Positions 35,618-41,701 of a DNA stretch of 41,799 nt are shown here, one piece after another. Numbering within the stretch: position 1 is the stretch's first letter; each line of letters begins with the position of its first letter. A program made the translations under genes and the position numbers. The notes beneath the pieces were generated by a model. The model was given only the letters and a program-made list of their open reading frames with translations. It was not told where the DNA came from and searched no databases. Source of the stretch: Chloroflexaceae bacterium (GTDB lineage Bacteria > Chloroflexota > Chloroflexia > Chloroflexales > Chloroflexaceae); NCBI GenBank assembly GCA_028282325.1, contig JANQID010000058.1, positions 1 to 41,799 on the forward strand, written 5' to 3'.

Positions 35618-37015
35618 CTACACAGAGGAAACTGCCGAGGAAGCGTCGGAATCGCACTGGGAAACGCCGACCTGAACGATGACCAGGGTGACATCATCAT
35701 TTTGCTCGGCGCCGCCACGAAACGTAACTACAGCATTCCAAAGCGTTTGCAACATGTGGTTCGCATCGCTCCCTTTCGTGGAATACAATACCTGGCGCAA
35801 CCGTTCGTAGCCGAAGATCTCGCGTCGCTCGTTCATCTCTTCAATCACGCCATCGCTAATCAATATTATCTGGTCGCCGGGACAGAGCTGAATGCTCCGC
35901 TCGTCATAGGATTCATCGGGCTTCGCACCGAGCGGCAGACCATTGATGACATTCTCTTCCACGGCGCTGTCGCGTTTGATAATAGGGTAGGGATGACCGG
36001 CATTGGAGAAGCGCAACGTAAGCGTTTGCAAATCGAGAATTCCGTAGAACGCCGTCACCATCTGCTTCACCGAGCGATCGCTGCACATAGTTTGATTGGC
36101 ATTCACAAGCACATCGGCGGGCGAATCGGTTCGCCGAGCTTCATTGCGCAGAATGCTGCGCGTCATTGTCATTACCATCGCGGCGGCCAGACTCTTGCCA
36201 GTGACATCGGCCATCACAATTCCCAGCCGATTCTCGCCGAGATCGATAAAGTCATAGAAATCGCCGCTAGTTTCACGCGCCGACTCGGAGCGCGAGGCGA
36301 TCGTCAGCCGATTGTCGGGAGCCGGCGGATCAGGGTACAGTTGTTGTTGCAGATCACGCGCAATTTCCAGATCGCGGCGCATCAAACTGTCATGAAAAAT
36401 TTGTTGACGGGCGGCGTCGAGCTGTTGTTCGGCTTTGATTAGATTTGTTTGATAGAGCCAGGAGATAATGCCCAGCACAACGATAAATACGCTAATTGGA
36501 AAGCTAAAACCGAGACCATAGGCGCTATCATTCAGGTTGCCGAGCGAGTCTGTCGCCAGGGCAAAGGCGCCGGTGATCAACGCCACATTGAACACAGCGC
36601 TCCAGATAATCGCCCAGGGCCTGAGCAACATGCCCGCAAGAATCACCGTCAGCGCCAACATATAGCCGAACAACGCCGCAGCGGCCGGATTCTGAAAGAT
36701 AACGATATTTAGAACAAAACTGAGCGCCAGGAGAACCTCAAGCGTGGCGCAGAACAACATTGTAGCGAGGGCGAATCGCTTTTGGGTATAAAACCAGAAG
36801 ATAAGCAGTTGTATGCCTGCACTCGCCCCAACAATAATAAAATCCCAGATGTTCGAGGTGATCGGCGGCACAAGCATCACGATCAGGGAGACGATATGCA
36901 ACCCTATTCCGCTCAAGATCAGGGGATAAAGCAGCCTGGCTTTATTTTGCAGTTCCGAATTCAATTCTAACGCAACCAATTCGCGATCTATGCGTGAAGA
37001 GATTGGGAAAGACAT
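35618..37015 (-). CDS. Membrane-bound SpoIIE/RsbU-type serine phosphatase
   Basis: A 465-residue protein with about six membrane segments (roughly 30-190), a linker helix (about 195-225, QQLDAARQQIF) and a SpoIIE-type PP2C domain (about 235-450). The metal-binding acids are visible: ETSGDFYD, ADVTGKS, ILISDGVIE and NDDVTLVIV. RsbU-type enzymes dephosphorylate STAS anti-anti-sigma factors; the STAS proteins in this window are natural but unproven targets. ATG 37015 is chosen; an in-frame start at 37066 extends into the non-homologous upstream. No ribosome binding site is visible. It follows the RiPP-precursor-like gene across a strong hairpin. Confidence 0.88.
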   Translation of the reverse strand: MSFPISSRIDRELVALELNSELQNKARLLYPLILSGIGLHIVSLIVMLVPPITSNIWDFIIVGASAGIQLLIFWFYTQKRFALATMLFCATLEVLLALSFVLNIVIFQNPAAAALFGYMLALTVILAGMLLRPWAIIWSAVFNVALITGAFALATDSLGNLNDSAYGLGFSFPISVFIVVLGIISWLYQTNLIKAEQQLDAARQQIFHDSLMRRDLEIARDLQQQLYPDPPAPDNRLTIASRSESARETSGDFYDFIDLGENRLGIVMADVTGKSLAAAMVMTMTRSILRNEARRTDSPADVLVNANQTMCSDRSVKQMVTAFYGILDLQTLTLRFSNAGHPYPIIKRDSAVEENVINGLPLGAKPDESYDERSIQLCPGDQIILISDGVIEEMNERREIFGYERLRQVLYSTKGSDANHMLQTLWNAVVTFRGGAEQNDDVTLVIVQVGVSQCDSDASSAVSSV

Positions 37016-37044
37016 AGTGTAAAACTTGTTTTTGAGATGTAGCA

Positions 37045-37089
37045 GCGCGCCACCCGGATCACGCAATGACGATCGTCAGGATGGCGCGC
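37045..37089 (-). terminator. Hairpin with nested palindrome after the RiPP-precursor-like gene
   Basis: GCGCGCCACCC (37045-37055) pairs with GGATGGCGCGC (37079-37089) over 11 bp; on the minus-strand RNA the single non-Watson-Crick position is a G-U pair. The loop ends with the perfect palindrome TGACGATCGTCA (37067-37078). It lies 37 bp after the precursor stop and 30 bp before the phosphatase start, so it can terminate or attenuate read-through, or bind a regulator. Confidence 0.6.
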
Positions 37090-37126
37090 CAGAAATATCC
37101 GCATTACAAGTCCTGGTAACTTCCGT

Positions 37127-37351
37127 CTACTTCCAGAAGCTGCCTTTGCCACCCACGAAAGGTCGAGAAATTTGATCAGGTGTTAGTTCTTTCTTGAGTT
37201 GCTCAACACTTTGCTTGACCTGCTCAACTTCATCGGGGGTCAGGCCTAAACCTGATGCTTTGATCGAACCTTCCGGATCAGCCATTAACTTCTCGCGAAA
37301 ATCCGCGTCCATAACTGCGCGTCCGACCAGACGTTCGAAATCGGGGCTCAT
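37127..37351 (-). CDS. NHLP-clan (Os1348-like) RiPP precursor candidate
   Basis: A 74-residue peptide. Residues about 1-55 have the nitrile-hydratase-leader-like pattern seen in Os1348-type precursors: FERLVGRAVMDADFREKLMA, DPEGSIKASGLGLTPDEVE and a helix QSVEQLKKEL. Residues about 56-74 (LTPDQISRPFVGGKGSFWK) would be a short core with Gly, Ser, Thr, Phe and Trp and no cysteine. AGGAGG six bases before ATG 37351 is the strongest ribosome binding site of this region, suggesting abundant product. It is co-directional with the isoprenoid-synthase-like gene upstream (91 bp) and the phosphatase downstream. No YcaO, radical SAM, LanM or peptidase-transporter gene is in the window. It could also be a small non-RiPP relative of nitrile hydratase alpha. 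Confidence 0.65.
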   Translation of the reverse strand: MSPDFERLVGRAVMDADFREKLMADPEGSIKASGLGLTPDEVEQVKQSVEQLKKELTPDQISRPFVGGKGSFWK

Positions 37352-37442
37352 ACATCACCTCCTAAGGTTACTATAAAGACCATACCAGACGACACGACCG
37401 TTCTTCCGTGCTTGATCCATTATGTAAAAAGTCAACGAATTG

Positions 37443-38453
37443 TCAAATACCGGGCTGCATCCCAAACAGCGAACGCATACTCGCTCGCCGCTCGCGTTCC
37501 TCCGCCCACATCTGGGCGTCTCTGGCCATATGCTGTTCGATCAGGTCGCTGAAGCGCGATGAATCATACGGCGCCAGATGATCAAGCGCCTGTTGCTGCA
37601 AATCCCGATGCGTCCGCTCGATACTGCTCCAAAAATCCTCGTTGTGAAGCTGAAGTCCCGCCAGGCGCTCCAGGTCAAGCTCGTCGCCAGGCTTAATCTT
37701 CCCATTAGCGTACAGATAGCTCATAAGCTGCGCCGAAACGTAGTTTATCCGCCCGCCCCGGAGGTCATCAAGCCAGTCGCTTGCGTCGTCGCCGATCTGA
37801 CGAGCGGCGGCAAAGCAGTGCAACGCGGCGATCAGATCGCGCGAGATCGGCTGTTCAGGCGCAATGCCCGCCAGGTGAAGCTGGGCCAGCGTGCTAAAGA
37901 AGAATGGCGCTGCGCGTTCGATTATCCACGCGATTGTGAATTGCATCAGCCCATCGGGCGTCAGTCCGCTGATACGATCAAAATGGGCGTGTAACTCACG
38001 CGCATGAGCCGCCGCAGATTGAGCGGCAAAACGCTGAAACTCGCTCCAGCAAGGCGCCTCGGTGACGCCAAGCATGCGGTAGATCTCGACCATTTTCAGC
38101 AGTGCCAACTGCGCGCTCGGCAGATCCGCAACGATGGCGCTTCCATCAAGCAAATCGTCCTGAACGGAGTAGTATTGCCAGCCGTACAGATTGGCGACGC
38201 CCAGTTGGAGAGCGATGTCCGGGCTCACCGGAACCAGATCGCTGAGCCAGAACGGTAAAAGCGCGACGAGACGGCTAAATTCATATGTCGCCAGTTTGGC
38301 GAAGCTGTCCAGCGCATCATCACGCAGCGGAACATCGTAATGGGAAATGTCGAAATAAATCGTTGCAGTGATAGCTTGATAGCGCTGAGCATCGACTGAC
38401 TGCTCAGCAACGGAGGAGATAGTATGAATTGGCGCCTCCTTATCTGAATGCAT
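37443..38453 (-). CDS. Class I isoprenoid-synthase-like protein
   Basis: A 336-residue all-helical protein with two aspartate-rich motifs of class I terpenoid/polyprenyl synthases: QDDLLDG (D99, D100, D103) and QIGDDASDWLDD (D222, D223, D226), the second followed by LRGGRINYVS. These motifs bind Mg2+ and the diphosphate of an allylic substrate. The product could be a polyprenyl diphosphate, a terpene, or a prenylated acceptor; overall it does not look like a canonical farnesyl or geranylgeranyl synthase. ATG 38453 lies only about nine bases after the expected transcription start and has no ribosome binding site. An internal AAGGAGG begins 14 bases inside the frame. Confidence 0.75.
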   Translation of the reverse strand: MHSDKEAPIHTISSVAEQSVDAQRYQAITATIYFDISHYDVPLRDDALDSFAKLATYEFSRLVALLPFWLSDLVPVSPDIALQLGVANLYGWQYYSVQDDLLDGSAIVADLPSAQLALLKMVEIYRMLGVTEAPCWSEFQRFAAQSAAAHARELHAHFDRISGLTPDGLMQFTIAWIIERAAPFFFSTLAQLHLAGIAPEQPISRDLIAALHCFAAARQIGDDASDWLDDLRGGRINYVSAQLMSYLYANGKIKPGDELDLERLAGLQLHNEDFWSSIERTHRDLQQQALDHLAPYDSSRFSDLIEQHMARDAQMWAEERERRASMRSLFGMQPGI

Positions 38454-38683: not shown

Positions 38684-41600
38684 GTGTCACCACACATCAT
38701 CGTTGTTCGGGGATCGCTGGCTGGTCGTACATTTCCGTTGGGCGACGCCCCGCTCTCGTTGGGACGCAATCCGGACAACGATATTGTGGTGTCGGATCCG
38801 CGCGCATCGCGCCGCCACGCCGAAATTCGTCGCGAAACCGCCGGCTTTGTCCTCTATGACCTGGGAAGTTCAAACGGCACTTTGGTTAATGGGCAACGCA
38901 TTCAATCTCGCGCGCTGCAACCCGGCGACGAGTTTGCGATCGGCGACTTTGCGTTTCGCTTCGACGCCCCCGCAGTCGCAGACGGTGAAACGCTGGTGGT
39001 TGGTTCGCCCATGCCTCCCTTCGTCGCCCCCGCAGAAGCACCCGCGGGCAGCGCGCCGCCCGGACAAGCCCCCTTGCCGCCGATGATCGGTTCGCCGCCG
39101 CCCGGTCGAACTCCAGCCACCGGGCATCAACCTCGCAAGCCGGGTCTGGCATTGCTGGCCGTCGTTGGCAGTCTCTTCGTCTGTATTGTGCTCGCCGGCA
39201 GCATTGGCGGTTACATGTGGTGGCAATCAGGGCGTAGTTCCGATGATCCTATTACGAATCCCGCGCCGGAAGCCACCATTGTCGCATCTTCGCCATCCGT
39301 CACCGTAGTCGCCGATCCTGCCAGTGAACTCCCTGATGATGCCGCAGATTGGACGGTGATGGTCTATCTTGACGGCGACAACAACCTTGAGCCTGATGCG
39401 CTGATTGATTTTATGGAAATGGCTGAGGTTGGCTCCAGCGATCAGATGCACATCCTGGTGCAGCTTGATCGCATCGCTTCGCCCGAACGCTGGGACGACG
39501 CCGACTATGGCGATTGGACCGGCGTCAAGCGATTTCGAGTTGAACGCGGTATGCAACCCACAGACGCTAATCAGATTGCCGATCTGGGTGAATTGAATAT
39601 GGGCGATCCGGAAACGCTCGCCGATTTTCTAGAGTGGGGCATAACAACTTATCCGGCGCGCCGCTATGCGCTGGTGATCTGGGACCATGGCGCAGCATGG
39701 CTGGGCATCGCCAGCGATGACACCAGCGACGGCGATGCAATACTCCTGCCCGAATTGAGCGCAGCGCTCAATGACGCTCAGCAGCGCACCGGCATCGATA
39801 AGCTCGATTTGATCGGGTTCGACGCTTGTCTGATGGCGCAGATGGATGTGTTGCAGACGGTTGCGCCGTTTGGCCAGGTGGCTGTCGCAAGCGCCGAGAT
39901 GGAGCCGAATGACGGCTGGGCCTGGGACATCTGGCTGGATGAGCTTGCGCGCAACCCTGAGCAAAGCGCTCGCGATATTGCGCCCGTCATTGTATCAAGC
40001 TACATTGACTATTATCAAGACACCGGATCCGACGAAGTAACGCTTTCGGCGTTCGATCTCAGTCAATCCGATCAACTGATCTCCGGCCTGGATGCGCTCT
40101 CAAACGCGATGCAGAAAAACTTGACCGGATCATTTACCGCCATCGGCCAGGCGCGCTCATTCGCAACGTTCTATGCACCGCTCTACGCCGAAGATTTTAG
40201 CGCAGTTGATCTCGGCGACTTCGCGCGTCTCCTTCCTGAGCAAGGCGCACACAGCGAGATTTCATCCGCAGCGCGAACGCTGTTCGACACGATCGAGCAA
40301 GTTCGCATCGCTCACGGCAGCGGAACGTATCACCCTAATTCGACCGGTCTCTCGATCTATTTTCCTCAGGTCGAAGAGTTGTATTACCCAATTTACGAGC
40401 GCAATTCGCCGCTTCCCAACCAAACCGGCTGGGATGAATTCCTGCGCGACTTGCATCAGACCAACGACATCGCGCTCACTCGTCCGACGATTAGCGACTT
40501 GAGCGTGAGTAGCACGACAGTCAGCACAGACGCCCCCGTTGCACTGAGCAGCACGGTGGCCGGTCAGGACATCGCCTATATTTTCACGTTCACCGGAACG
40601 CCGAATGCCAGTCGTGACACCGTTCGCCTGCTCAACATTGACTTCGTCTATCCGCCCGGCGTCGCCCCCACGGGCGATGCGCCATCCTGGGACACCAATG
40701 GAACTCAGTTGCGCCGTGATTGGGATGCCACAAGTTGGCACTTGACGAACGGCAATGAAACAATCAATATTCTGTTGGGCCCGGTCAAATATGGCACAAA
40801 CATCTATGGCGTCGAGGGCGTCTACACATCACGCGACACCGGCCAAGAGATTGACGCGGGACTCATCTTTGAAATAGCCCAGGGACAAGGCATCTTGCGG
40901 CGCGTCTGGGGCTTTCCTAAGCGCGCCGGCAAGCAAGATCCACAGCCGTTTGAGCTTTCCCCGCAACCGGGCGATACGTTTACCGCCTATATCCGAACCT
41001 ACGCCGATGAAGGCGATCATCTGAAACCGGACGTCGTCGCTGGCGAGACTATTGTCTTCGGCGATCAACCGCTGTCCGCATTTCTCGGTCCGGCGCCGGA
41101 TGGCGACTACGTAACGGGATTTATGGTACGTGATGTATCGGGTCAATTCAGCTACCAATACGCCGATATTCGCGTCAGCAACGCTGCATCGCCGCAACAA
41201 CCCACGCAGGAAGCGGATAGCGCCACACCGCAGGTCGGTGATGTTGAAGGCATGCTGGCCTATACTAACCGCCAGTTGCGCTTTGGGATAGACTACCCGG
41301 AAATGTGGGAGCCGTTCGATACCGGGCGCGACAAAATCGTTTTCTACAATCCAGCAAACACGGATGATACGTATTTCAGCATCGATGTCTATAAACTTGC
41401 AGCGTCTCCCGATGCCGCAAGTCTGGACATGTTGAATCAGTTTCTCGATCTGTTGAACGACGAATCAGGCTATGAAATCCAGCGAGAGATTGAAAGCTTC
41501 AACGTAGCCAGTCGCCAGGGATACGAAGCCGAACTCGTCTACGACAACCACGCCGGACGGCAAATCTACGTCGCCACGGTCGCAGTAACCAGCGAGAACA

Positions 41601-41701
41601 CCAACCTCACCTATCTCTTAACGATCGAGGCGCCGATCGAGTCATTCGACCGTTACCTTGAGACCTTCAATACAATGCTGGCCAGTTTTGAGATCGAATA
41701 A
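38684..41701 (+). CDS. FHA-transmembrane-clostripain (C11) protease
   Basis: A 1005-residue protein. An FHA domain (about 1-95, GRNPDNDI, SRRHAEI, GSSNGTLVNG) is cytoplasmic. A proline-rich linker (100-152) leads to one membrane segment (about 154-178). Outside is a clostripain-type C11 peptidase domain (about 222-580) with DGDNNLEPDAL, the catalytic H335 (IWDHGAAWLG) and C382 (GFDACLMA). Beta-rich repeats (about 600-860) and a C-terminal domain (about 875-1005, FGIDYPEMWEPF) follow. It would couple binding of a phosphorylated partner inside to protease activity outside. Start GTG 38684 has GGGAGG seven bases upstream; an upstream ATG at 38651 is less likely. The stop abuts the outer end of a repeat element. 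Confidence 0.85.
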   Translation: MSPHIIVVRGSLAGRTFPLGDAPLSLGRNPDNDIVVSDPRASRRHAEIRRETAGFVLYDLGSSNGTLVNGQRIQSRALQPGDEFAIGDFAFRFDAPAVADGETLVVGSPMPPFVAPAEAPAGSAPPGQAPLPPMIGSPPPGRTPATGHQPRKPGLALLAVVGSLFVCIVLAGSIGGYMWWQSGRSSDDPITNPAPEATIVASSPSVTVVADPASELPDDAADWTVMVYLDGDNNLEPDALIDFMEMAEVGSSDQMHILVQLDRIASPERWDDADYGDWTGVKRFRVERGMQPTDANQIADLGELNMGDPETLADFLEWGITTYPARRYALVIWDHGAAWLGIASDDTSDGDAILLPELSAALNDAQQRTGIDKLDLIGFDACLMAQMDVLQTVAPFGQVAVASAEMEPNDGWAWDIWLDELARNPEQSARDIAPVIVSSYIDYYQDTGSDEVTLSAFDLSQSDQLISGLDALSNAMQKNLTGSFTAIGQARSFATFYAPLYAEDFSAVDLGDFARLLPEQGAHSEISSAARTLFDTIEQVRIAHGSGTYHPNSTGLSIYFPQVEELYYPIYERNSPLPNQTGWDEFLRDLHQTNDIALTRPTISDLSVSSTTVSTDAPVALSSTVAGQDIAYIFTFTGTPNASRDTVRLLNIDFVYPPGVAPTGDAPSWDTNGTQLRRDWDATSWHLTNGNETINILLGPVKYGTNIYGVEGVYTSRDTGQEIDAGLIFEIAQGQGILRRVWGFPKRAGKQDPQPFELSPQPGDTFTAYIRTYADEGDHLKPDVVAGETIVFGDQPLSAFLGPAPDGDYVTGFMVRDVSGQFSYQYADIRVSNAASPQQPTQEADSATPQVGDVEGMLAYTNRQLRFGIDYPEMWEPFDTGRDKIVFYNPANTDDTYFSIDVYKLAASPDAASLDMLNQFLDLLNDESGYEIQREIESFNVASRQGYEAELVYDNHAGRQIYVATVAVTSENTNLTYLLTIEAPIESFDRYLETFNTMLASFEIE

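Follow-up and report, generated by a model that had tools for sequence, protein, structure and literature searches.

The 41,799-nucleotide contig JANQID010000058.1 (assembly GCA_028282325.1) of a Chloroflexaceae bacterium from the phylum Chloroflexota, which as a whole is referred to here as the window, encodes on its minus strand, in this order, an isoprenoid-synthase-like enzyme, a short peptide of the Os1348/NHLP type and a membrane phosphatase, with intergenic gaps of 91 and 111 bases. These three genes probably represent a lipopeptide signalling module that combines a peptide signal prenylated on tryptophan with a membrane receptor which, in Chloroflexota, is coupled to a phosphatase. The gene content, motifs, fold, conservation of the tryptophan, co-occurrence of the genes and a sensor domain shared across phyla are observed directly; the reaction, export, ligand and output of the module are what we infer from them. 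Among known systems, PalQ/PalX/PalP of Paenibacillus alvei comes closest; it consists of an NHLP precursor ending in Trp, a Trp prenyltransferase resembling trans-isoprenyl diphosphate synthases (trans-IDS) and a histidine kinase (PMC10853753).

The enzyme itself produced no match in Pfam, NCBIfam, PADLOC or PDB-sequence searches. Its AlphaFold2 model, built from 12 sequences (mean predicted local distance difference test score, pLDDT, 90.2), displays the trans-IDS fold, with a VIA-align Z score of 23.6 to the polyprenyl synthase 4jyx (root-mean-square deviation 2.8 over 283 aligned residues). The Foldseek matches of the model include the tryptophan farnesyltransferase Ord1 (9v4g), which is not among the top 50 of a DALI-like comparison, so that the structure supports assignment to the superfamily and not specifically to the PalQ subfamily. 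The latter assignment is suggested by the motifs. In the first Asp-rich motif (FARM), D99 and D103 are invariant in 12 Chloroflexota sequences and also in 15 sequences across phyla; in the region of the second Asp-rich motif (SARM), Q219, D222 and D223 are invariant and D226 is nearly so among 15 sequences from two phyla. The published residues of PalQ are D89/D93, Q197 and D200/D204 (PMC10853753), and the spacing of FARM, Gln and SARM is the same in both enzymes when compared by published residue numbers only. A Gln preceding the SARM is common to the Trp-directed trans-IDS-like enzymes (PMC13290415). Taken together, the motifs and the modelled fold strongly suggest that the window enzyme is a trans-IDS-like peptide Trp prenyltransferase of the PalQ type.

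In a plasmid collection, the only homologue of this enzyme is a distant, cyanobacterial one, encoded on plasmid NZ_CP050446.1 of Tolypothrix sp. PCC 7910 (locus L042, 1-1115). No Gln precedes its second Asp motif, and its gene lies immediately 5' of that for an Os1348 peptide containing VNWRVD internally; the gene table, from which genes spanning the record start are left out, does not list the enzyme gene. A reading of the window locus as a defence system was dropped as PADLOC gave no match.

The peptide exceeds the curated cut-offs of both NF038399 (NCBIfam, Os1348 family NHLP clan; E 1.3e-16, 60.4 bits, cut-off 40) and PF14407 (Pfam; E 1.7e-14, 54.3 bits, cut-off 48), and no match to the ComX family (PF05952) is present among its Pfam matches up to E 10. 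Across 22 genomes, 25 such peptides are encoded next to a gene for a SpoIIE phosphatase with transmembrane helices (TM-SpoIIE), and all 25 contain a single Trp at position -1, -2 or -3; it is exactly C-terminal in 3 of them and penultimate in most. By comparison, no Trp is found in the last three residues of any of about 50 Os1348 peptides located elsewhere in the class, a few of which have truncated or uncertain frames. Among the relatives of the window peptide, identity is 55% in the leader and 21% in the linker and tail apart from the invariant Trp, which is the only invariant column of the tail alignment (GSFWK in the window; LGWN, TQWG, GVWA, SVWS, SSWK, SGWS, PVWS and GSTW in other peptides). 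Judging from this pattern and from the modelled enzyme, Trp73 of the window peptide is very likely to be prenylated.

Most Chloroflexales also possess Os1348 peptides of another family, with (G/A)GxGF at the C-terminus; these are encoded next to a nucleotide-cyclase-like multidomain protein of about 1450 amino acids and appear to form a separate, apparently uncharacterised pair with it; examples are L027 (3805-8453, on contig C55 of the window genome G000) and L118 (6784-11332, genome G043). Related Os1348 peptides ending in SKAWFRVGP are found in L116 (3236-7257), where the peptide comes after a 1235-aa cyclase-like protein, and in L117 (6554-6772).

The link between the enzyme and the Trp-ended peptides was assessed in 158 genomes of the class, representing 78 genera. 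The enzyme is found in 22 of these, which are exactly the 22 genomes with a Trp-ended peptide next to TM-SpoIIE; Fisher's test yields 2e-27 when genomes are counted and 5e-12 when genera are (9 of 78), both values being inflated by shared descent. The gene order is enzyme-peptide-phosphatase in most genomes and peptide-phosphatase-enzyme in Chloroflexus. In six Herpetosiphon genomes as well as in G004, G032 and G060, the peptide gene is paired with that of the phosphatase, and the enzyme gene does not adjoin them. Within three carrier genera, there are species that lack the enzyme and the peptide alike (Chloroflexus G042; genera g5 and g11). In G010 (L191, 1-4745), exporter genes are followed by a frameshifted TM-SpoIIE gene, and both the enzyme and the peptide are missing between them; considering that G041, a congener, has both, this looks like a joint loss. 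The preliminary description of this DNA had noted that its proposal would fail if the small gene and the synthase were never neighbours elsewhere; the pair recurs in many genomes, and its conservation and co-occurrence render this objection inapplicable. Chloroflexus aurantiacus appears to carry the module, as one of the carrier genomes (G043) is presumably that of strain J-10-fl; given that this organism can be cultured, the module would be directly testable. In the Herpetosiphon loci L019, L021-L023, L035-L037 and L039, a DnaJ-like gene takes the place of the peptide after the enzyme gene.

The phosphatase contains a SpoIIE domain (PF07228, E 6.2e-51) behind six transmembrane (TM) helices and a long signalling helix. 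Its Asp residues D252, D270, D388, D440 and D441 are invariant in 8 relatives, and the catalytic fold matches RssB, SpoIIE and SiaA. Among the PP2C phosphatases of the RsbU/SpoIIE/SiaA kind, there are members that regulate partner-switching. Each of the 22 carrier genomes has a TM-SpoIIE gene adjoining the peptide gene, including those that encode the enzyme elsewhere, and the sensor domain (>100 bits) is found in the same 22 genomes plus G010. Comparison by hhalign of this sensor with those of histidine kinases encoded next to homologous enzymes in Patescibacteria gave scores of 33-78; unrelated multi-TM proteins reached no more than 22.4 and shuffled controls no more than 19.5. This homology implies that one sensor domain is connected to two outputs. 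It is thus reasonably likely, on the basis of these comparisons, that the phosphatase is the membrane receptor of the peptide. The preliminary description had cast it as a possible regulator of synthesis; a receptor role is more likely in view of the conserved pairing with the peptide and of the exchange of kinase for phosphatase behind one sensor. The arrangement would then be that of ComQXPA, and presumably also of PalQXP, except that Chloroflexota use a phosphatase where those systems have a kinase.

In Patescibacteria, a homologue of the enzyme was detected on a Falkowbacteria contig (L041) and, within the order to which this contig belongs, in 16 of 111 genomes. The typical gene order comprises an OmpR-type response regulator, an open reading frame (ORF) of 33-57 codons, a six-TM histidine kinase and the enzyme (L041, 4570-7708; L169, L171-L174 and L178-L180). 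The short ORFs end in NPGTPWRD, PGKPWL or similar sequences, and no NHLP domain is present in these Trp-ended peptides. These loci are candidate ComQXPA-like systems of ultra-small bacteria. Three Patescibacteria enzymes are larger, 650-690 amino acids (L175, 2294-4366; L176, 2357-4321; L182, 4748-6688), and two of them, those of L176 and L182, have a class II terpene-cyclase-like part as their N-terminal half, so that the parts stand in the opposite order to the P-C that the name ChrPC suggests. The chances seem about even that a single module spans Chloroflexota and Patescibacteria, composed of a Trp-ended peptide, a prenyltransferase, an optional cyclase and a six-TM sensor which is mounted either on a histidine kinase or, in Chloroflexota, directly on a PP2C phosphatase; the latter arrangement would then constitute a kinase-free class of pheromone receptors, possibly sensing polycyclic terpenoid peptides.

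The optional components vary among the Chloroflexota. Six relatives (L029, L031-L034 and L070) encode, in the same gene run, a cyclase-like protein of the 310-aa type, with a DLDDT motif in those that were read, whose profile matches squalene-hopene cyclases, drimenol synthase and other terpene cyclases in PDB and, weakly, SQHop_cyclase_C. A search of the window genome (one genome, 99.98% completeness) found no class II (DxDD) terpene cyclase, which makes an acyclic product probable there. A MacA/MacB/FtsX-type exporter is encoded upstream in L031, L032, L034 and L191.

These components can be tentatively arranged into a pathway. The Os1348/NHLP domain (approximately residues 1-50) would dock the precursor on the trans-IDS-like enzyme, by analogy with PalX, and the first Asp-rich motif of the enzyme would serve to ionise a C5-C20 allylic diphosphate. 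The prenyl group would then be transferred to the indole of Trp73; Gln219 and the second Asp-rich motif probably hold this residue in place, judging from the identity of the motif with that of PalQ. Cyclisation of the prenyl group would follow in several relatives, which encode a class II terpene cyclase of one domain as a separate gene, and in the window genome the product would probably stay acyclic. The modified C-terminal peptide would be cut off and exported; four relatives encode a MacAB-type exporter upstream. Finally, the six-TM domain of the adjacent phosphatase is predicted to sense the prenylated peptide and thereby alter the PP2C activity, which is probably directed at a STAS-type anti-anti-sigma partner encoded elsewhere.

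An unlikely alternative is that the peptide is indeed prenylated and the product is an antimicrobial or a membrane lipopeptide, with the phosphatase serving only for self-protection or for regulation of expression. Bacteriocin-like products are common from NHLP precursors, and MacAB-type exporters upstream of some of the loci fit such a role; against it stand the TM-SpoIIE gene that directly adjoins the peptide gene in every carrier genome, including those where the enzyme is elsewhere, the occurrence of the same sensor on two-component kinases next to the homologous genes of a second phylum, and the histidine kinase that is also present in PalX and ComX loci. Still less probable is a reading of the synthase as a conventional small-molecule enzyme that makes prenyl diphosphates or terpenes, and of the Os1348 peptide as an unrelated small regulator of the phosphatase. 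The fold and DDxxD motifs are shared with farnesyl and geranyl diphosphate synthases, whereas the perfect co-occurrence of the enzyme with Trp-ended peptides even in the unlinked cases, the Trp-recognising Gln at the PalQ position, the invariance of the Trp alone in a tail that otherwise evolves fast and the association of the Patescibacteria enzymes with unrelated Trp-ended peptides all argue against this reading. Modification at a different residue or at the C-terminal carboxylate, for which the Trp would be no more than an anchor, has a precedent in prenyl transfer to peptide termini in cyanobactins (PMC10853753) and is most improbable, given that Trp is the target of every characterised trans-IDS-like peptide prenyltransferase (PMC13290415) and that no further tail residue is conserved.

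The signalling module nevertheless has several points to contend with. The comparison with PalQ relies on residue numbers taken from PMC10853753. Moreover, PalQ requires Trp at the exact C-terminus, and extra Ala residues abolish its activity (PMC10853753), so that the mostly penultimate Trp found here occupies a position which PalQ itself would not accept, and the site rules must differ. The co-occurrence counts are partly inherited by descent, the carriers belonging to 9 of 78 genera. The receptor role, predicted from gene linkage and sensor homology, is moderately supported. No protease gene adjoins the module, and in the window no exporter gene adjoins it either.

The preliminary description had recognized the 74-aa Os1348/NHLP-type peptide, its very strong ribosome-binding site, the preceding class I isoprenoid-synthase-like protein with both DDxxD motifs (DDLLD and DDASD) and the neighbouring membrane phosphatase, all of which are borne out by the profile matches, the modelled trans-IDS fold and the SpoIIE domain behind the six TM helices. 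The sequence TTAGGAGGTGAT-GT-ATG at the start of the peptide gene is a complete match to the Shine-Dalgarno consensus. The interpretation of the locus as one for a ribosomally synthesized and post-translationally modified peptide (RiPP) stands insofar as an NHLP precursor is served by an isoprenoid-synthase-like enzyme; prenylation, then considered plausible, is now well supported by motifs, fold, Trp conservation and co-occurrence. The single Trp in the last three residues had been overlooked, and the suggestion of new chemistry is not supported, considering that PalQ/PalX already perform C-terminal Trp prenylation of an NHLP precursor (PMC10853753) and ComQ/ComX do likewise with a different precursor.

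Table 1. Features of the predicted signalling module and their positions in the window.
Feature	Position	Strand	Remarks
Trans-IDS-like peptide (Trp) prenyltransferase, predicted	37443..38453	(-)	336 aa; model fold and conserved motifs
First Asp-rich motif (FARM) DDLLD, residues 99-103	38145..38159	(-)	Counterpart of PalQ D89/D93
Q219-xx-DDASD; second Asp-rich motif (SARM) DDASD is residues 222-226	37776..37799	(-)	Counterpart of PalQ Q197, D200, D204
Sigma-70-like promoter TTGACA-16-CATAAT, shortly 5' of peptide gene	37419..37446	(-)	11/12 consensus positions; weak evidence
Shine-Dalgarno sequence TTAGGAGGTGAT of peptide gene	37354..37365	(-)	Read directly from sequence
Os1348/NHLP precursor peptide, ends GGKGSFWK	37127..37351	(-)	74 aa; NF038399 and PF14407
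Trp73 codon, penultimate residue, predicted prenylation site	37133..37135	(-)	Lone near-terminal Trp; sole invariant tail column
Six-TM SpoIIE/PP2C phosphatase, predicted receptor	35618..37015	(-)	465 aa counted from ATG; PF07228
N-terminal six-TM sensor domain of phosphatase	36401..37015	(-)	Homologous to Patescibacteria histidine kinase sensors (hhalign)
SpoIIE/PP2C catalytic domain with D252, D270, D388, D440, D441	35669..36235	(-)	Conserved Asp residues and fold match

Promoter-like sites scoring at least 9/12 are as numerous in the real sequence as in shuffles. A divergent gene of the window (38684-41701, plus strand) encodes a protein with FHA, clostripain-type C11 peptidase and PsbP-like domains which might conceivably process a peptide; among the relatives listed, none has such a gene next to the module.

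PalQ (2023) had already established both the chemistry and the pairing of precursor and enzyme. A phosphatase-coupled receptor, a split cyclase and the presence of such a system in Chloroflexota or Patescibacteria were not found in the literature searched, which included few subscription papers and hence is no proof of novelty. If the proposed role is correct, lipopeptide quorum sensing would reach two phyla for which that literature contains no such report, a phosphatase-type receptor for a prenylated peptide would be added, and prenyl-Trp signalling would not be a speciality of Firmicutes. The Patescibacteria loci would provide a candidate cell-to-cell signal in these organisms, and the separate prenyltransferase and cyclase genes would be new tools for peptide lipidation.

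With PalQ/PalX/PalP, the window module shares an NHLP-type precursor with Trp at its C-terminal end, the positions of FARM, Gln and SARM and the organization as a three-gene cluster with a signalling protein. It differs in that a SpoIIE phosphatase, and not a histidine kinase such as PalP, is the candidate for the receptor, that the Trp is mostly penultimate, that a cyclase gene is often present, that the genes can be unlinked, and in the phylum. ComQXPA of Bacillus, similarly, combines a class I prenyl-synthase homologue, a short precursor with a near-C-terminal Trp and a multi-TM receptor, and the Patescibacteria loci resemble it further in bringing together response regulator, peptide, kinase and enzyme. 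In contrast, the window peptide has no Pfam ComX match, and the Chloroflexota loci encode a SpoIIE phosphatase in place of the histidine kinase and response regulator, a pair confined to the Patescibacteria loci. The window enzyme possesses a second Asp-rich motif (DDASD) that is absent from ComQ (PMC10853753), and a 2014 census did not find the comQXPA locus outside Firmicutes (PMC4008528). In ChrPC (Hubrich et al. 2024, as described in the review PMC13290415), a class II-type cyclase is combined with a trans-IDS-like prenyltransferase in a P-C fusion; compared with such fusions, the prenyltransferase and cyclase of Chloroflexota are separate genes linked to a membrane phosphatase, and the window locus contains no cyclase. 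Finally, RsbU, SpoIIE and SiaA share the catalytic domain and fold with the window phosphatase, which is distinguished from them by its N-terminal six-TM sensor, common to the Patescibacteria kinases and tied to the peptide gene.

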